From the IMG/VR virus record IMGVR_UViG_3300042691_013166, positions 1 through 23,299 of that record: DNA of 23,299 nt. The stretch is one strand, 5' to 3'. A program made the position numbers and the translations under genes. The stretch's first letter is position 1; every line of letters begins with the position of its first letter. Source of the stretch: a virus. A model generated the notes under the pieces. It was not told the DNA's origin, searched no databases, and was given only the letters and a program-made list of their open reading frames with translations. Shown here piece after piece: positions 792 to 14,355 of the stretch.

Positions 792-1991
792 TTACACGAC
801 AAACACGCTCGGTCCTTTCTTGATAAGTGGCGACAGGGCATAGCGTATCGCGTCCCAGCAATGGTCGTTGCCGTCCTTCAGGATAGGTAAGACCTCATCC
901 GTCCGAGCGTCGGTCTTGTACCGCCAGAGCCGCGCTTCTTCGATGGTGCGCTTGCATCGCGGGTGAATCACGATGGTGGCGTAGGATCGGAGATGCTGGA
1001 TGCCGTCCTCAACGGAGCCTGACCACTTGGGTGCCGCCTCACACCGGAAACCCCGCTTCTTCATCTCGGCAATCGTTTCCGGTCTGGCAGAATCGGCTCG
1101 CATGACATACTTCCGCGCATCTGGTACCGTGTCAAACACTCGGGCCGTGGCATCGCTGTCAAGCTGGATACCGCCAGCCTCATGCTCAACGTACAGCACG
1201 TTGTCGTACGTGTAGCATTTGACAAGCGCCGTGGCGTCCCGAGCAAATCCCCAGTCCACGCCGAAGTACGGCCCCTGCCATTCCGCCTTTGGCTCAAACT
1301 CTTGCACCTGCCACTTGCCTGACAAGACCTGTGCGTCGGACCGCGCCCACGGATCACCGCCCCAGATGTGCGCGAATGCTTCGGGGTCGGCCTTGAGCAA
1401 CGCATCGGCCTCGGCTTGCAAGACCTCGGGGAACCACGGGTTGTCGCGGTACGTCACCTTGCGGCAGACGGCGTTGGCTGGCTGGCTCTTGACGAACCGC
1501 TGGTAGGTCGGGTCGGACTCCAGCGCGGGGTTGAACGTCACCCAGATCTCGGACCCCGGCTTACGGATGGTCGGGATAAGGGTATGCCAGCTATGGTCGG
1601 AGACGGCCTCGGCTTCTTCGACCCAGCATACGTCAATGCCTTCCGTGGACTTGATCTGCGCGATGTCGCGCCGTAAGCCCTTGAACAGAAACTCGGTCCC
1701 GTTGGCCCCCAAGATGGCGGACTCTTGGACCGTGTAAAAGGCACCGAGGTCAAGCCGCTCTATCTGGTCCGCCAAGACGCGATGCACCGAGTCGCGGATA
1801 CTGGCTTGGTACTCACGCGCACAGAGGATGCGGAGGGGACGCGACAGGCCGTGGACAAGCAAAGCTCTGGCGAATTGCCACGACTTTGCCGAGCCTCGAC
1901 CGCCATAGGCGATGCGATAGCGCAAGCCCCCGAGGGCAGGGTTGAACAGGAACGCAAAGGATCGCGGCGTCTCGACTGCTAACGCGGTCAT
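792..1991 (-). CDS. terL: Terminase large subunit (ATPase/nuclease), PBSX-like
   Basis: This is the packaging motor that drives DNA into the prohead and cuts concatemers. The 399-aa protein has a Walker A motif GGRGSAKS (residues 30-37), a Walker B/acid patch VCWVEEAE (121-128), and a coupling motif VTFNPA (151-156). The C-terminal RNase H-like nuclease begins with GVDWGF (D246), with further candidate metal ligands D300 and D380 (NDHCWDAIRY). The layout and wording fit the PBSX/Terminase_3 family. The start ATG overlaps the TGA of the upstream methyltransferase by four bases (ATGA), so the two are translationally coupled. Length is normal to slightly short for the family. A headful (pac) packaging mode would fit this TerL type, but that is inference. 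Confidence 0.96.
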   Translation of the reverse strand: MTALAVETPRSFAFLFNPALGGLRYRIAYGGRGSAKSWQFARALLVHGLSRPLRILCAREYQASIRDSVHRVLADQIERLDLGAFYTVQESAILGANGTEFLFKGLRRDIAQIKSTEGIDVCWVEEAEAVSDHSWHTLIPTIRKPGSEIWVTFNPALESDPTYQRFVKSQPANAVCRKVTYRDNPWFPEVLQAEADALLKADPEAFAHIWGGDPWARSDAQVLSGKWQVQEFEPKAEWQGPYFGVDWGFARDATALVKCYTYDNVLYVEHEAGGIQLDSDATARVFDTVPDARKYVMRADSARPETIAEMKKRGFRCEAAPKWSGSVEDGIQHLRSYATIVIHPRCKRTIEEARLWRYKTDARTDEVLPILKDGNDHCWDAIRYALSPLIKKGPSVFVV

Positions 1992-3340
1992 CCGAACAGG
2001 TCAGGTTCCGGTGTTTGACTGGCCCAATGCGCGATGCGCTTGCGGGCAATCTCAACGTACTCGGCGTCAAGCTCTGCCCCCAAGTAGCGGAACCCTTCAA
2101 GGACCGCCGCGCATCCGGTCGAGCCAGAGCCGTTGAACGGGTCAAGCACAAGGCCGTCGGGCGGCGTAACGAGTCGGCAAAGCCAGCGCATCAACGCGAT
2201 CGGCTTGACGGTCGGGTGATGATTGGCGGTCTTGATCGTCGCGTATGGGTCGCCTTCGCTAAAGCCACGCCCGCTGGCGTTCTTGATCCCGCCGTCACGC
2301 TTGTGCATCCCGTCCAGCCCCGCCTCTCGTTCGCGGCGTGAGGCCTTTGCGGTATAAAAGAAGCGCGACTCGGGGAACAACGCCGCCGCGTCCTCGTCGA
2401 GGCAGACGTTGGCGGGCCAGCGACCGACTTGTATGCGGGTGGTGTACGGCTCACCAACGGCACCACCAAACGGCTTGGCCCCGTTGTCAAACGTGTTGAT
2501 GGTGACGGCATCCGTTCCAATCCGGCACGCGTCCACGTTGATTCCGCCTGTCCCGTACTGCGTGACGTTCGCCGCGACCGTACCGACCAGCGGCTTGCGG
2601 GCAAGGACTATGGGTTCCCACGCGGGCTTGAGCGCCGTCCCCCAGCCGTCCCATTGCTTTGCGGCGTCGGTAGCTGGGCGGGTGATGTCGTATTCGCCGT
2701 CAGGTGTTCCGCCACCGTGGGCAAGGGATGGCGAATTGACAACAAGGTCGGTGCGGTGAATTACCACTTCCCGCTCGGCGGCTTCGATGCTGGCAAACGG
2801 CAATCCGAATGTGTTGCGAATCAGGTTAAACTGTTCAGGCGTTGGCAAGTTAAACCCGAGTTCCCAGTTCGCCACACATCCCGTCAGGTTGCCCGTTTTA
2901 CTTGGAAACAACGCCGCAACTTGCTTTTGCGTGACGCCGTGTTCTTCGCGCCATTTGCGGAACCACGGCCCGAACCACGAAGGTGGTGTGCCGCCGTGCT
3001 TGTCTATCGCCTTGCCGATGTTCAGCGACTTCGGAAACCCCGATCCGTACAGCCACGACAGGCAGTCCCGCACTTCCCACCCCGCGTCCTCAATCGCCAC
3101 CGCCAGACGGTGAAACGTGCGGGTGCCGCCAAAGGCTACAAGGTGTGCGCCGGGCTTGGCAACGCGCAGGGCTTCGGTCCAGAACTCGACGCCGGGAACG
3201 CCGTGGTCCCATTCTTTGCCCATAAAGGCGAGGCCGTAGGGCGGGTCGCTGACGATGGCGTCCACGCTGTTGTCGGGCAGGGTCCGCATGATGTCGCGGC
3301 AATCGCCGTGCCGGACTTCCCATCGGTTGTCGGTTGTCAT
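1988..3340 (-). CDS. Beta-class DNA methyltransferase with an embedded XRE-type HTH
   Basis: It probably methylates adenine N6 or cytosine N4 in DNA, to protect phage DNA or mark it for packaging. Motif IV is SDPPYGL (31-37) near the N-terminus and the SAM-binding motif is LDPFNGSGSTG (399-409) near the C-terminus, preceded by HHPTVKP (374-380); this order marks the beta group. Between them, residues about 124-185 read as a Cro/C1-type helix-turn-helix: FRKWREEHGVTQKQVAALF, a turn, then NWELGFNLPTPEQFNLI. This replaces or sits inside the usual target-recognition region. At 450 aa it is longer than simple family members because of that insert. It overlaps the TerS-like gene (ATGA at 3340) and terL (ATGA at 1991), so it lies inside the packaging operon. 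Specificity cannot be read from the sequence. Confidence 0.93.
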   Translation of the reverse strand: MTTDNRWEVRHGDCRDIMRTLPDNSVDAIVSDPPYGLAFMGKEWDHGVPGVEFWTEALRVAKPGAHLVAFGGTRTFHRLAVAIEDAGWEVRDCLSWLYGSGFPKSLNIGKAIDKHGGTPPSWFGPWFRKWREEHGVTQKQVAALFPSKTGNLTGCVANWELGFNLPTPEQFNLIRNTFGLPFASIEAAEREVVIHRTDLVVNSPSLAHGGGTPDGEYDITRPATDAAKQWDGWGTALKPAWEPIVLARKPLVGTVAANVTQYGTGGINVDACRIGTDAVTINTFDNGAKPFGGAVGEPYTTRIQVGRWPANVCLDEDAAALFPESRFFYTAKASRREREAGLDGMHKRDGGIKNASGRGFSEGDPYATIKTANHHPTVKPIALMRWLCRLVTPPDGLVLDPFNGSGSTGCAAVLEGFRYLGAELDAEYVEIARKRIAHWASQTPEPDLFG

Positions 3341-3615: not shown

Positions 3616-4266
3616 TCAATCTACAACAGATTGCGGAGTAAACAAGTCGGGATGCTTGCGGTGTAAAGCGGCGAAGGCGCGTTCGCGATTGCTGGAGGTC
3701 GTGACGCGGTGAGCTTCGTGCGTGTAGTGGACCCAGCCGTCAATCGGAACGTAGAGGGCTTGACCGCCAGACTTGAGGACGCGGAGCCAGAAGTCCCAAT
3801 CGTGGACGTATTCGAGGGTCATGTCATAGCCATTGACGCGATCCCACGCCGCTTTACGGACAACTGAGGACTGCCAGATCTTGTTGCCTTCCGTCATTTC
3901 CTTGAGCGTCACCGAGGCTGGCGGGTAGTAGCTGGCTCCGACCCAGACCTTATGTTCGTGGTCGCGGTGTGCGCTCTTCACGTTGGTGTAGGCGATGTCG
4001 GCACCCGTGCTGTCAAGCGCAGAGAGGGTATGCTCGAAGTAATGCGGTTCGAGGGTATCGTCATCGCCCAAGATGCAGAGGTAGCGGCCTCGGGCGATCT
4101 TCGCCATGTCGTTCCATGCGGTGTGGAAGTTGGCGGGGTCGGTGCAGTAGTTGACAAGGATCTGAATGCGGCTGGGCGGGAGCGTCTGGTCCCAGACGGA
4201 TTGCAGGGCGTACTGAAGGAACGGCGACCGATGGGACGCGATGAGGACCGTAACGTCAGGCGTCAT
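3616..4266 (-). CDS. Family 2 (GT-A fold) glycosyltransferase
   Basis: It transfers a sugar from a nucleotide-sugar donor. The 216-aa protein starts with the GT2 strand VTVLIASHRSPFLQYALQSVWDQT (residues 5-28), has a DXD-type metal/donor site LGDDDTLEP (66-74), and an EYVHDWDFWLRV segment (152-163) matching the GT2 acceptor/base region. There is no membrane segment, so it is cytosolic. The target could be a virion protein, phage DNA or a host surface glycan; nothing in the sequence decides. Its start overlaps the upstream 54-aa gene by 11 bases. A second, GT-B glycosyltransferase lies at 15824-16939. The fold call is strong; the substrate is unknown. Confidence 0.9.
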   Translation of the reverse strand: MTPDVTVLIASHRSPFLQYALQSVWDQTLPPSRIQILVNYCTDPANFHTAWNDMAKIARGRYLCILGDDDTLEPHYFEHTLSALDSTGADIAYTNVKSAHRDHEHKVWVGASYYPPASVTLKEMTEGNKIWQSSVVRKAAWDRVNGYDMTLEYVHDWDFWLRVLKSGGQALYVPIDGWVHYTHEAHRVTTSSNRERAFAALHRKHPDLFTPQSVVD

Positions 4267-4420
4267 TGGACGGCGCTGGCGTAAAGACCAACGCCTGATG
4301 TCCGGTGTCTACGTCAACCACTTCGAGCGTGTTGCCGAAGGTGGCGTTCCACTTCTTTGCGAACTCACGCAAGTCAATCGTCATTGGGCGTGGGGTATCG
4401 CCTTTGCCATTGTCCGTCAT
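4256..4420 (-). CDS. Small hypothetical protein (54 aa)
   Basis: This short gene sits between two well-coupled genes. Its ATG overlaps the stop of the upstream 54-aa gene by four bases (ATGA) and its end overlaps the glycosyltransferase start by 11 bases. The protein begins MTDNGKGDTPRPMTIDLREF and continues with KKWNATFGNTLEVVDVDTGHQ, a mixed charged sequence that looks like a single small alpha/beta domain. No known motif is recognised. The tight packing and lack of any other frame across this interval are the main support. Confidence 0.6.
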   Translation of the reverse strand: MTDNGKGDTPRPMTIDLREFAKKWNATFGNTLEVVDVDTGHQALVFTPAPSNDA

Positions 4421-4581
4421 TCTTCGGGATCTCCGAGGGTTTCGAGTGGTTTGGGGATAAGCGCCTTTGCCGCGTCAAGGAGCGTCTGCATATCGTTCCG
4501 CCATTGCTTCGCCTCGTCACCGAGAATGTCGGTGAGTTCTTTGGCGAAGTCATCATCCGAGATGTCAAAGTCCCCCGGCAT
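4417..4581 (-). CDS. Small acidic hypothetical protein (54 aa)
   Basis: The protein starts MPGDFDISDDDFAKELTDIL and is strongly acidic and predicted helical, with an amphipathic middle (GDEAKQWRNDMQTLLDAAKAL). No family is recognised. Upstream it overlaps the end of the small membrane-protein gene by 17 bases; downstream it is coupled by ATGA to the next gene. Genes of this size are easily missed in annotation. A bridging or regulatory protein is possible but unsupported. Confidence 0.6.
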   Translation of the reverse strand: MPGDFDISDDDFAKELTDILGDEAKQWRNDMQTLLDAAKALIPKPLETLGDPEE

Positions 4582-4783
4582 AGTGTTCTCCTGATTGACG
4601 TAGACGCGCCTGATCGCGCAGAGTATCGACTTGAGCTTTGGTCAGTCCGGGCGGCATTTGCTTCTTGAGGTAGCCGAACGGGATGCTGGCGAGCCAGAGG
4701 AAGGCCAGCGCTGGGATGGTCAAGAGCGCCATGCAAAGAACCATCAGCAGATTAGCGACGGCTTGGACGAGTGAACGGAACAT
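4565..4783 (-). CDS. Small membrane protein (72 aa)
   Basis: The protein starts MFRSLVQAVANLLMVLCMAL and has one long or two short hydrophobic segments between about residues 5 and 37 (LLMVLCMALLTIPALAFLWLA), followed by a charged helical tail (LTKAQVDTLRDQARLRQSGE). It is therefore probably an inner-membrane protein with a cytoplasmic tail. I chose the ATG at 4783 because upstream codons in the frame, back to an ATG at 4855, lie inside the zinc-finger gene and look like its shadow. No ribosome binding site is obvious; translation is probably coupled to the overlapping upstream gene. Function is unknown; it is far from the lysis module, so it is not a prime holin candidate. Confidence 0.55.
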   Translation of the reverse strand: MFRSLVQAVANLLMVLCMALLTIPALAFLWLASIPFGYLKKQMPPGLTKAQVDTLRDQARLRQSGEHYAGGL

Positions 4784-10776: not shown

Positions 10777-11098
10777 ACCGCCTCGTCAGGATGTGACTAG
10801 CCATGTCGGGGCAGTTACCCCGAAACGCGACTCCGAACCGAAGGTACCGTACTCACCGCCTCTGTCGCGTCCCGTAGTCAGCGGGGGTGCTGTCGAGGGT
10901 GGGTGTCCGTGTGACGGCTCCACGCCCTGCCACTACACCGCTCATACTCGTCGTGTCAGTCTGCCCCACCAAGTTCTAGGCCGAGAGCGCTTGGATTTGT
11001 GAATGGAACGGACGGATGAGCGCACGGTCAGGATTGGTCGGTGGCTGTCGGTACAGGCACCACGCGGGAGACCGAGAGTAGGCCCGCGGTTCGTCAGA
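10777..11098. other. 322-base gap with no convincing gene
   Basis: Neither strand has a frame with good start, ribosome binding site and protein-like sequence. A 30-codon frame on the minus strand (MSGVVAGRGAVTRTPTL...) is possible but weak. There is a small hairpin tcgggg-cagtta-ccccga at 10806-10823 near the start of the HNH gene and a distal 5-bp repeat ccaag/cttgg around 10969-10992. I saw no tRNA-like pattern. It may hold a promoter or an RNA, or be a decayed gene. Confidence 0.5.
11063..11088 (-). terminator. Hairpin just after the methyltransferase stop
   Basis: A 6-bp inverted repeat (cgcggg at 11063-11068, cccgcg at 11083-11088) with a 14-base loop lies about 10 bases past the stop at 11099. 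No U-run follows. It could be a weak terminator or an RNA-end protector. Confidence 0.3.
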
Positions 11099-12067
11099 TT
11101 ACTTGCGCGTCACCTCCGCAAAGAGGGAGTTGTCTTGCCGAATGCGGTTCTCCGCAAGTTCCGCATACGTCGGGTTCAGTTCACATAGCACGGCATTCCG
11201 TCCGAGCCGATCCGCCACCAGCCCAGTCGTGCCAGCCCCGCCAAACGGGTCCAGCACCGTATCGCCAGACTTGCTCCCCGCCTTGATGCATGGCTCAATC
11301 AGGTCAGGCGGGAACGTGGCAAAATGAGCGCCCTTGTACGGCGAGGTCGGCACGGTCCACACGCTCCGACGGTTGCGCCCATTAGGGTGCAGAAAGCGCG
11401 ACATATCGCCATCCTCCGGCTGATTGACCGCTCGGCCTTCAACGTGTTCTGACAAATGGAATGGACGCTTGACGCGCTCGATGCTCACCTCCGCATGAGG
11501 CTCACGTATCGCATCCGCATGGTAGTAATAGCGATCTGACTTGGACAGCAAGAAGATGTATTCGTGCGCCTTTGTGCAACGGTCCTTGACGCTTTCCGGC
11601 ATCGGGTTCGGCTTATGCCAGATAATGTCTTGCCGCAAATACCAGCCGTCGGCTTGCAACGCAAACGCGACCCGCCACGGGATGCCAATCAAGTCTTTGT
11701 GCTTGAGGCCAGACGCCCGAAGGTTCGCAGGGTTGCGGTTCGCGGCCTTGCCTGACTCGACAAGCGTACCGTCCGAATCTCCGCGCAATGTATCAGGGGT
11801 CGCTTTGCTGTCCCGCATCGCGGCGTAGCTGTCACCGAGGTTAAGCCACAGAGTCCCGTCATCCCGCAACACGCGCTTGACGGCGCGAAACACCGAAACC
11901 AGTTCCGCGACAAAGGCGTCTGGCGTCTGCTCTAGCCCAATCTGCCCGTCGTGTCCGTAGTCCCGTAACCCAAAGTACGGGGGACTCGTCACGCACATCT
12001 GCACGGACTGATCCGGCAGTTCCGCCAGCCGCGTCCGGCAATCGCCAACCAGAATGTCAATGGACAT
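11099..12067 (-). CDS. Beta-class DNA methyltransferase (TSPPY type)
   Basis: The 322-aa protein (counted from MSIDILVGDC) has motif IV TSPPYFGLRDYG (27-38) and a C-terminal SAM-binding motif LDPFGGAGTTG (272-282), with a GAHFATFPPDLIEPCI segment before it. This is the beta-group layout of N4-cytosine or N6-adenine methyltransferases common in phages. The TSPPY form is seen in both types, so the target base is not settled. The start at 12067 has AGGTG upstream and follows a long structured leader; a start at 12082 lies in the hairpin arm and lacks a site. No cognate restriction enzyme is visible, so it looks like an orphan, protective or regulatory methyltransferase. Confidence 0.93.
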   Translation of the reverse strand: MSIDILVGDCRTRLAELPDQSVQMCVTSPPYFGLRDYGHDGQIGLEQTPDAFVAELVSVFRAVKRVLRDDGTLWLNLGDSYAAMRDSKATPDTLRGDSDGTLVESGKAANRNPANLRASGLKHKDLIGIPWRVAFALQADGWYLRQDIIWHKPNPMPESVKDRCTKAHEYIFLLSKSDRYYYHADAIREPHAEVSIERVKRPFHLSEHVEGRAVNQPEDGDMSRFLHPNGRNRRSVWTVPTSPYKGAHFATFPPDLIEPCIKAGSKSGDTVLDPFGGAGTTGLVADRLGRNAVLCELNPTYAELAENRIRQDNSLFAEVTRK

Positions 12068-12077
12068 TTGGCACCTA

Positions 12078-12170
12078 AACACAAGGCCCGAACGTTCTCT
12101 CCTGTGAGAAGGCTCAACCCCCGTAGAAGGATTAGAGCAGGAGATACTTGTTCGGGCCGTCTCTTGTGTT
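12078..12170 (-). ncRNA. Large hairpin in the leader of the methyltransferase gene
   Basis: On the coding strand AACACAAG (12170-12163) pairs with CTTGTGTT (12085-12078), and GCCCGAAC (12157-12150) pairs with GTTCGGGC (12093-12086). The two 8-bp stems are contiguous on the 3' side and have a 5-base bulge on the 5' side. Further in, TCTCCT (12144-12139) pairs with AGGAGA (12103-12098) and GCTC with GAGC. The 3' end of the structure abuts AGGTG, the ribosome binding site of the methyltransferase. No protein-like frame covers it. It may be a cis-acting RNA or a small RNA; I recognise no known class. Confidence 0.5.
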
Positions 12171-12329
12171 CTGCGGACGCTATGCTTCTCACGACACAGC
12201 GCACTCCCAAGATACCACTTCTTCCACGTTCCGCAAGTCTGCGCTTCGCTTACGTTCTAACGCTTTGTGTAGCAAACACTTGCGCGATTTATCCTTCAGG
12301 CACGGACACTATATCAAAACTGATATAGC
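12171..12329. other. Gene-free, repeat-rich part of the leader
   Basis: The stretch between the 97-aa gene and the large hairpin has no gene I can support. It holds an inverted repeat cgcaagt (12232-12238) / acttgcg (12278-12284) enclosing small hairpins such as GTGT-TTGCT-ACAC, and a pair tgcgga / tccgca. A 39-codon minus frame (12189-12308) lacks a good start. Together with the hairpin at 12078-12170 this looks like an untranslated leader. Confidence 0.5.
12288..12328 (-). promoter_or_regulatory. Candidate promoter with AT-rich palindrome
   Basis: A perfect 8-4-8 palindrome, ctatatca-aaac-tgatatag (12309-12328), stands right after the stop of the 97-aa gene in otherwise GC-rich sequence. 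Its half gives TTGATA (12312-12317), followed after 18 bases by GATAAA (12288-12293). Transcription from here would begin near 12281 and give a leader of about 210 bases before the methyltransferase start. The palindrome could also act as an operator or hairpin. Confidence 0.4.
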
Positions 12330-12623
12330 CTATAGCATAAAACCGATACGCCGCCGTCTGGCCTCTGGCGGGATCACGAACTCCTCAAAGTCATCATCGT
12401 CCGGCACTTCGCCAAACGCCCCGCCGTGTGCGCCCCCGGCATCTGGCATCAACTCCTCGTACCCTGCTTGCACCAACGTCCGCATCATGTCAAGCAACTC
12501 TTTGGCAACCGCGCCAGAGTCCGTCGCGGCAACGTCGGCAATCTCAATCGACAGCCCGTTCCGATGCACCGACACCGTGGCCTTGCGGTTGGTGAATGGG
12601 TTCGTCTTACGCCTCGTCGCCAT
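12330..12623 (-). CDS. Hypothetical protein (97 aa)
   Basis: Begins MATRRKTNPFTNRKATVSVH, with a beta-like middle (RNGLSIEIADVAATDSG), a helix (AKELLDMMRTLVQAGYEELM), an acidic patch (EVPDDDDFEEF) and a basic end (PPEARRRRIGF). No family is recognised. The ATG has GGAGG at good distance and lies inside the end of the previous gene (17-base overlap). It is the last gene before the structured leader. Confidence 0.65.
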   Translation of the reverse strand: MATRRKTNPFTNRKATVSVHRNGLSIEIADVAATDSGAVAKELLDMMRTLVQAGYEELMPDAGGAHGGAFGEVPDDDDFEEFVIPPEARRRRIGFML

Positions 12624-12843
12624 CCCAGCCTCCGTGCAGAATTCCGTGCTTGACTACGCCCACCATTGTCGGCAACAATCCGTCGCACCACGGGCAACGC
12701 TCCCACGGTTCGAGGACGTTCTTGGACTTCCACCAGACCCAGCCCAACCCCCAGACATACGAGATGTCCCCGCGATCCCGAGCCGCCTTGCGCTCGTCGC
12801 ACGGGATAGGGGACCAATCACGGCAGATGGTTCGCTCTGTCAT
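12607..12843 (-). CDS. Small Trp/Cys-rich protein (78 aa)
   Basis: Begins MTERTICRDWSPIPCDERKA and contains CPWC (C50, C53) plus C7 and C15, with several tryptophans (VWGLGWVWWKS). A zinc-binding role is possible though the ligand spacing is loose. The start overlaps the stop of the metallophosphoesterase by four bases. Function unknown. Confidence 0.65.
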   Translation of the reverse strand: MTERTICRDWSPIPCDERKAARDRGDISYVWGLGWVWWKSKNVLEPWERCPWCDGLLPTMVGVVKHGILHGGWDGDEA

Positions 12844-14168
12844 CTGACCGTACTCCGCCGCATCCCAAGCAAGTACCCGTCCGCGTGATACACGTAGCTG
12901 TCCATCGCTCGCGGTGCGCCAACAAATCCTTCGGCACTATGCCAGCCGTCCGGTGGGCAGAGCGCCGGGTGCTGGCGGATCGTCACGCCGCCGACCGTCT
13001 CCACCATCGCGTCCGAGTGCCGATGCCCGTGATGCACCTCACGGAGCTTGGCAGTTCCCCATTGCTCTCTGGCTTCGAGGGCCATTAACTCGCCTAACCG
13101 CTTCTGCGCCTTGTCGCCGTGCGTCAGACCAACGAGACAATTTCCAAACGACACATACTTTCTGGTAGTCTTACGGGCGTCTATGGTCACGCGTTCGTCG
13201 TTCGCGAACGTTGCAGAAAGGATATGCCGAAGGGCAACCGTCATGACCGCATCGTGATTGCCCGGGACCAGCACAACCTCAAGCGGTCCGCGCTGTGCCG
13301 CCGCCTCAATCACATCACACAACACCGCGACGGCTTCCTCGATCATCTTGTCCACCCGCCCATCGCGGTCGAGCGGGGTGCCTTTGGTCGTGGTGCCGTG
13401 CGGCGTGTCGTAGTGCAAGATATCCCCAAGCATCCACAAGGCTCTGTGGGAAACGTTCTCGTTGTCCCCCCACGCCAGCAGTTCGGCGGCGGCGTTGCGA
13501 ATCAGCCGAGTGGCAATGCCGATGTCGTAGTCCTCCCAGCCCGTCTCTTGCCCCCACGCATACTTACCAATGTGCGGATCTGCGAGGACGACGGCCTGTA
13601 GCGCATTCGCCTTTGGTTTTGGTTTGTGCGCGGAAATCTTCGACCGTGGTTGAATGGCCCCACGAATCATCCCTTCCACCACCTCAATGACGCTCGGCCC
13701 CGCTTTCGGCTTGAGCTTGACGAACACGCGATGCAGTTCGGTGACCGTCACCTTGCCAGTCGCAGGGTCTTTACTCGCCACTTCGTACTTGGTTGCCTGA
13801 CTCTCGGCAACCTCAAAACACGTCAGGTCCGCACCGATGTGCTGAAGCAAGTCCTCAACGGTCTTGATGCGAGCGCCGTGCGCCCGCGCCTCAATGCCCT
13901 TCTCTGTCTCAATCCGCTGGACTTCTTGCTCGGTGACGCTATGCCCCACCGCATCCGGGAGCGGTTGCGTATAGTTGCGGTTGGTCTTGATCTTGGCCTT
14001 CGTCCGCCGATTGACGACGCTCGGTTCCGTGCGGATCGGCTGGCCTTTGTGGAACTCCGCGTTCAATCGCTTGGCGGTGTCCGAGGCCGAAACACCCGAC
14101 GCGGATAACACCGCGAGTCGCTGAAGCTCCTGAAGGGTCCATGCGGTTTTATCGCCGCGAACTGGCAT
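12840..14168 (-). CDS. Calcineurin-like metallophosphoesterase with N-terminal HTH-like region
   Basis: Counting from the ATG at 14168 (442 aa), the metal-binding motifs are ADPHIGKY (196-203), MLGDILHY (246-253), VPGNHD (301-306), THGD (349-352) and HHGHRHSD (379-386), in the order of the Mre11/SbcD-like phosphoesterase fold. The first 60 residues (WTLQELQRLAVLSASGVSAS and on) look like a small HTH, followed by a basic linker. Phages carry such proteins near replication or lysis genes, and a DNA exonuclease or phosphatase role is likely. A longer start at 14213 is possible, but no ribosome binding site favours it. It overlaps the zinc-ribbon gene by 20 bases. Confidence 0.88.
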   Translation of the reverse strand: MPVRGDKTAWTLQELQRLAVLSASGVSASDTAKRLNAEFHKGQPIRTEPSVVNRRTKAKIKTNRNYTQPLPDAVGHSVTEQEVQRIETEKGIEARAHGARIKTVEDLLQHIGADLTCFEVAESQATKYEVASKDPATGKVTVTELHRVFVKLKPKAGPSVIEVVEGMIRGAIQPRSKISAHKPKPKANALQAVVLADPHIGKYAWGQETGWEDYDIGIATRLIRNAAAELLAWGDNENVSHRALWMLGDILHYDTPHGTTTKGTPLDRDGRVDKMIEEAVAVLCDVIEAAAQRGPLEVVLVPGNHDAVMTVALRHILSATFANDERVTIDARKTTRKYVSFGNCLVGLTHGDKAQKRLGELMALEAREQWGTAKLREVHHGHRHSDAMVETVGGVTIRQHPALCPPDGWHSAEGFVGAPRAMDSYVYHADGYLLGMRRSTVR

Positions 14169-14355
14169 AGGTGGGCAGGGTGGGGGGAACCCATGCGTGA
14201 ACCACACGACCATCGGGGTGCATCAACGGCATCGTACCATCTGGCGCTTTGTCGATGTCAATCCAGCCTTGATCCAAGCACCACCCACAGGCGGGGTGGT
14301 AGGCATCCGTCGATGTCCCGCCACAATCGGGACAAATCACGCGCACCGCATTCAT
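14149..14355 (-). CDS. Small zinc-ribbon protein (68 aa)
   Basis: Counting from the ATG at 14355, CPDC (C8, C11) and CGWC (C23, C26) form a four-cysteine zinc ribbon; the rest is acidic to neutral. AGGAG stands nine bases before this ATG, and the ATG three codons earlier would touch the site. The gene is coupled to the metallophosphoesterase downstream. Zinc ribbons of this kind are common in small phage proteins that bind nucleic acid or partner proteins. Confidence 0.7.
   Translation of the reverse strand: MNAVRVICPDCGGTSTDAYHPACGWCLDQGWIDIDKAPDGTMPLMHPDGRVVHAWVPPTLPTYASSRR

Follow-up and report, generated by a model that had tools for sequence, protein, structure and literature searches.

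ROOL and GOLLD are ornate phage RNAs with no function described (PMC12286853). They are the nearest known kind to two RNAs that we describe here, RNA1 and RNA2, which resemble them in being phage-encoded, noncoding and strongly covarying, with pseudoknots or kissing loops. The differences lie in family, size and organization: neither RNA1 nor RNA2 matches an Rfam model (gathering threshold, or a looser limit of E = 5), and at ~130 nt and ~300 nt, respectively, they are much smaller than ROOL and GOLLD at ~600 to over 800 nt. Unlike ROOL and GOLLD, RNA1 and RNA2 fold as separate units; assembly into RNA-only multimers (cages) is a further trait of ROOL and GOLLD. ROOL and GOLLD often lie near tRNA genes. 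RNA2 sometimes does, in two contigs only, L111 and L103, where a tRNA-Gln (TTG) gene is found ~80-125 nt downstream of it (L111:388-458 and L103:1372-1444).

RNA1 also invites comparison with the phi29 pRNA, likewise a small phage RNA in which a loop is complementary to a second single-stranded element and the pairing could form within or between molecules. However, RNA1 has no Rfam match, and instead of a phi29-type packaging system the phage considered here has a TerL terminase, along with a tape-measure protein. The topology of the phi29 pRNA also differs from that of RNA1. Similarly, SAM- and SAH-sensing riboswitches are brought to mind by the position of RNA1 before the gene of a SAM-using enzyme, in this one genome, and by its pseudoknot, a feature of several riboswitch classes, but RNA1 has no family match and is not tied to SAM-using genes in its relatives.

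The DNA analysed here (the window) is a stretch of 23,299 nucleotides, positions 1 to 23,299 of IMG/VR record IMGVR_UViG_3300042691_013166, with the RNA1 locus on its minus strand. A first-pass annotation had pointed to a structured, gene-free gap at 12067-12329 and read it as the leader of the adjoining DNA methyltransferase gene, leaving a SAM/SAH riboswitch, a protein-bound autoregulatory leader or a separate small RNA as options. The gap does hold a real structured RNA, but the leader reading finds no support in gene context, in 80 further methyltransferase loci or in Rfam; it is the separate small RNA that context and comparative evidence favor. With a probability of roughly 0.7, we regard 12206-12076 on the minus strand as a phage RNA gene in its own right, one that has a sigma-70-like promoter and a knotted fold and may act in trans.

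Fold and pseudoknot of RNA1

The gap is indeed free of conserved genes: 12 of 23 homologues is the most in which any of the six frames stays open, and the homologous gaps mostly have lengths that are not multiples of three. A conserved protein running through the gap was looked for in the six frames of these 23 homologues and none was found, ruling out a hidden protein on either strand. A tRNA/tmRNA search of the window likewise found none. Compared with 200 dinucleotide shuffles, the whole gap folds with a z-score of -4.54, better than all 200. RNA1 itself occupies 12076-12206 (minus strand), where our covariance model R1 matches 12207-12078 with 114 bits. Folded alone, this 131-nt core has a z-score of -4.23; its shape recurs in seven homologues, whose z-scores run from -4.5 to -5.3.

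An alignment of 23 distinct RNA1 sequences supports a 5' hairpin, three stems (P1, P2 and P3) and a pseudoknot that joins the hairpin loop to the bulge between P2 and P3. Both sides change in 27 of the 41 pairs. The alignment contains 97 compensatory cells, compared with 39 in shuffles (none of 500 shuffles reaches the observed number), and its covariation score is 0.302 against 0.161 when shuffled; sliding the pairing partners abolishes the covariation (0.08-0.11). In the 5' hairpin, 12195-12202 pairs with 12177-12184, with both-side changes in five of eight pairs, and single-sequence folding of homologues recovers it. P1 pairs a 5' strand of the form AACACAAG-bulge-GCCCGAAC (12150-12170) with 12078-12093, and six of nine pairs in its upper part show both-side changes. 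The two stacked stems reported previously (12078-12085/12163-12170 and 12086-12093/12150-12157) prove real as P1, and the inner stem (12098-12103/12139-12144) as P2. P2, 97% paired, is flanked on its 5' side by an AAGUA junction (together 12139-12149) and on its 3' side by a GAAC junction (together 12094-12103); the resulting AGUA/GAA junction between P1 and P2 bears a resemblance, and only that, to a bulged-G motif.

In the window, the pseudoknot is a perfect 8-bp pairing between the hairpin loop GUGAGAAG (12185-12192) and the bulge CUUCUCAC (12104-12111), with both-side changes in six of eight pairs. The two strands change together across homologues, reading GUCAGAAG/CUUCUGAC in L082, CUCGAAAG/CUUUCGAG in L085, GGUCAA/UUGACC in L095 and GGGAAC/GUUCCC in L164. 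In an alignment-free test that compared each loop with its own bulge, none of 2000 loop-bulge permutations matched the true pairing, and when homologues are folded singly, precisely these two strands stay unpaired in most of them. The same pairing could instead link two RNA1 molecules.

We also applied an unguided, phylogeny-aware permutation test, purpose-written after the published R-scape idea. Four proposed RNA1 pairs rank first among all column pairs, with a best E of 0.03 and one pair only below E = 0.05. The RNA1 and RNA2 structures were partly read from sequences that also entered the pair counts, a shared use that the slid control and the alignment-free test offset only partly. Overall, comparison among homologues argues firmly for both the fold and the pseudoknot of RNA1.

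The check for covariation and stem conservation came out differently for the two domains that had been proposed: the first is covarying and conserved, and the second, with arms at 12232-12238/12278-12284, is neither. That second domain shows no significant folding (z-score -1.23), and L082, the closest relative, has no counterpart of the stretch that holds it. It lies (12232-12284, minus strand) upstream of the likely RNA1 start and is probably not part of RNA1; because it overlaps the -35 box at 12236-12231, it is probably not transcribed with RNA1 either. The first-pass annotation included neither the promoter nor RNA2, and within RNA1 it lacked the 5' hairpin (12195-12202/12177-12184) and the pseudoknot (12185-12192/12104-12111).

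Predicted promoter and genomic context of RNA1

A sigma-70-like sequence, TTGCGG-N16-TATCTT, spans 12236-12209 on the minus strand, with its -35 box at 12231-12236 and its -10 box at 12209-12214. Promoter-like sequences lie at a fixed distance before RNA1 in the 23 homologues, as TTGNNN or TTTACT, a spacer of usually 16-17 nt, and TANNNT. Their mean best score is 7.8 of 12, compared with 6.3 for shuffled sequence, where the top value among 200 shuffles was 6.8; the window promoter scores 7 of 12 only and is missed by a strict scan. These comparisons establish the geometry of the element across homologues, and RNA1 is predicted to have its own sigma-70-like promoter at a conserved position. At the other end, reading of the sequences finds a U-rich run after P1 in every RNA1 member, which makes the 3' end terminator-like, resembling an intrinsic terminator, though it goes undetected in a simple terminator scan. 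Just past P1 comes the ribosome binding site that serves the methyltransferase gene, so the methyltransferase could come from RNA1 read-through.

Directly upstream of the gap lies the gene of a conserved 97-aa protein (12330-12623, minus strand) that marks the phage group. The protein is highly conserved and has no Pfam or PHROG match, and its relatives are encoded by 42 viral (IMG/VR) contigs. Between this gene and the RNA1 promoter, 12237-12329 (minus strand) holds ~70 nt of lineage-specific sequence and a short palindrome, CTATATCAGTTTTGATATAG, a region that is possibly an operator. Further upstream of RNA1, an exonuclease gene (phrog_704, 12840-14213) used as query retrieved 15 related viral contigs, and the exonuclease is 49-90% identical across the group.

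All relatives of RNA1 are uncultured contigs from this one phage group, in which RNA1 is present in 26 of 30 contigs; in L155 its row is masked by an overlap filter, and RNA1 is present in the same contig as locus L086. The covariance model finds a single copy per record in 19 of 26 records searched. In most contigs RNA1 follows the 97-aa gene; elsewhere it lies a few kilobases further on, after other genes (L173, L174, L175, L181, L182, L183, L187 and L188). The element that follows RNA1 varies: RNA2 in 17 contigs, a 204-aa gene (p204) in three, a DUF5843-like gene in three, a C5 methyltransferase gene in one, and the methyltransferase gene of the window in two (the window and L105).

The product of this last gene (11099-12064, minus strand) is an N4/N6 DNA methyltransferase (PF01555, E = 3.8e-53), encoded between RNA1 and RNA2; this arrangement recurs only in L105. 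Thus, a methyltransferase gene of any kind directly follows RNA1 in three of 26 contigs (two N4/N6, one C5), and in 24 of 26 the next element is not this methyltransferase gene. Conversely, the RNA1 covariance model has no significant match in 80 other loci with relatives of the methyltransferase; the best has E = 0.052 and lies ~1.4 kb from the methyltransferase gene on the other strand. Because the next element varies and none of these 80 loci gives a significant match, RNA1 is not a methyltransferase leader, and the options that tied it to the enzyme find no support. Together with the Rfam results below, these observations led us to reject RNA1 as a methyltransferase riboswitch or leader. 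Sequence comparison instead casts the methyltransferase gene as a lineage-specific passenger between RNA1 and RNA2. The window encodes a second N4/N6 DNA methyltransferase at 1988-3340 (minus strand), adjoining the terminase gene.

Searched against Rfam at the gathering threshold and again with a limit of E = 10, RNA1 matched no family, SAM/SAH riboswitches included; one sub-threshold snoRNA match lies outside RNA1. For RNA2, searches at E up to 5 gave chance-level, far sub-threshold matches only, and gathering-threshold searches of the window and five relatives returned a tRNA and nothing else. A search of 50,697 phage and 72,556 plasmid records with the RNA1-RNA2 locus from L112 turned up no copies, nor did an RNA2 pattern occur in any of 84,980 prokaryote genomes. 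Viral pattern searches for RNA1 variants returned known members and chance coding DNA only. Relatives of the terminase are spread across many phyla and share no more than 53% identity along most of the gene. The 97-aa marker has no match in the 395 genomes searched from the phylum to which L191, labelled as a Gemmatimonadetes MAG, belongs.

RNA2 and its relation to RNA1

In the window, RNA2 directly follows the methyltransferase gene, at 10796-11087 on the minus strand (nhmmer E = 3.8e-39); in relatives without a passenger gene it follows RNA1, mostly at a distance of 4-35 nt. It is a structured noncoding RNA of ~300 nt, and the helices that an unguided helix scan identified in an alignment of 25 sequences include several pseudoknots or kissing loops. 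Both sides change in 44 of the 63 pairs, 97.3% of cells are paired, and the covariation score is 0.446, compared with 0.138 when shuffled and 0.04-0.08 when slid. Ranked against every column pair, the top hairpin pairs have E = 0.0005, and a further pairing, of a hairpin loop with the 3' end, beats all 2000 permutations. Single-sequence folding is uninformative (z-scores of -0.58 and 0.87), and support for RNA2 comes from covariation among homologues. The window and L137 carry a divergent RNA2 subtype, after which comes an HNH gene. In L085, a strong hairpin resembling an intrinsic terminator follows RNA2 (3628-3661), and similar hairpins are seen by eye in L083, L084 and L087; a hairpin of this type may end an RNA1-RNA2 transcript.

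A test for mutual covariation between RNA1 and RNA2 found none and yielded no convincing helix between them, and we reject pairing of RNA1 with RNA2 for this lack of covariation. Each RNA also occurs without the other, in contigs that may be fragments: RNA1 without RNA2 in L164, L167 and L168, and RNA2 without RNA1 in L169 and L148. For the RNA2 of L169, a separate promoter-like sequence is found on the opposite strand. In L148 (RNA2 at 4338-4638, minus strand), another hairpin-rich stretch lies ~70-250 nt upstream, at the place of RNA1; its start is promoter-like, its end resembles a terminator (GAGGGUCAGAG...CUCUGGCCCUC, U-rich), and it is not RNA1 by the model.

Alternative readings and proposed role

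The main rival to an independent RNA gene is that RNA1 acts in cis as an attenuator, because something always lies directly downstream of it. P1 and the U-rich run would then form a conditional terminator, with read-through set by the pseudoknot, a ligand or a protein. In every case RNA1 comes first behind its promoter, all 26 contigs have something directly downstream, a U-rich run follows P1, and the methyltransferase gene of the window would have RNA1 as its 5' untranslated region. However, the downstream elements are unrelated between genomes, unlike those of known riboswitch regulons, and single-sequence folds converge on one stable state with no obvious competing hairpin, so that we consider attenuation unlikely. 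A SAM- or SAH-sensing riboswitch controlling the methyltransferase, suggested by the SAM-using product downstream (PF01555), is very improbable given that Rfam has no SAM/SAH match at E up to 10 and that 24 of 26 contigs lack this methyltransferase gene after RNA1.

The absence of a covarying helix between the RNAs also bears on whether RNA1 and RNA2 each form one half of a single, larger ornate RNA whose linker tolerates genes. The two are adjacent in 17 contigs, mostly 4-35 nt apart, no separate RNA2 promoter is evident in those contigs, and ROOL and GOLLD RNAs also have a linker, in GOLLD sometimes with tRNAs (PMC12286853). Yet each RNA occurs alone, in L169 with a promoter-like sequence for RNA2 on the opposite strand, and we judge the union of the two improbable. 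The chance that the pairing is fortuitous, in noncoding or unrecognised coding DNA, is negligible: an open frame of 86 codons does run along the plus strand (12068-12328), but no frame is conserved, gap lengths are mostly not multiples of three, covariation far exceeds the shuffled and slid controls, and none of the 2000 loop-bulge permutations equals the true pairing.

In the independent-gene reading, the sigma-70-like promoter at 12236-12209 would start RNA1, whose 5' hairpin and long P1-P2-P3 stem are held together by the 8-bp loop-bulge pairing, and the RNA would end at P1 and the U-rich run that resembles an intrinsic terminator. In this genome the methyltransferase gene, as passenger DNA, may be translated from RNA1 read-through. 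We infer transcription, termination, action in trans and protein binding from these features: RNA1 would most likely be a stable structural RNA that works in trans, bound to a phage or host protein, and taken by itself we hold this trans-acting, protein-binding role tentatively, at a little under even odds. RNA1 and RNA2 each appear to represent a new family of trans-acting phage RNAs. That they cooperate in trans as an RNA or ribonucleoprotein device, in which RNA1 assembles by its loop-bulge pairing (possibly between molecules) and RNA2 supplies a compact core with multiple pseudoknots, perhaps catalytic, is conceivable but doubtful.

Phage genomes are packed with genes, and noncoding DNA kept over divergence as deep as that of this group (exonuclease identity 49-90%) signals a strong function. 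The locus illustrates that a gap before a phage gene need not be the leader of that gene; the gene can be the insertion. With its small size and clean fold, RNA1 is a practical subject for structural and pull-down work. Moreover, two covarying RNA families, one of them with several pseudoknots, would extend the short list of ornate phage RNAs.
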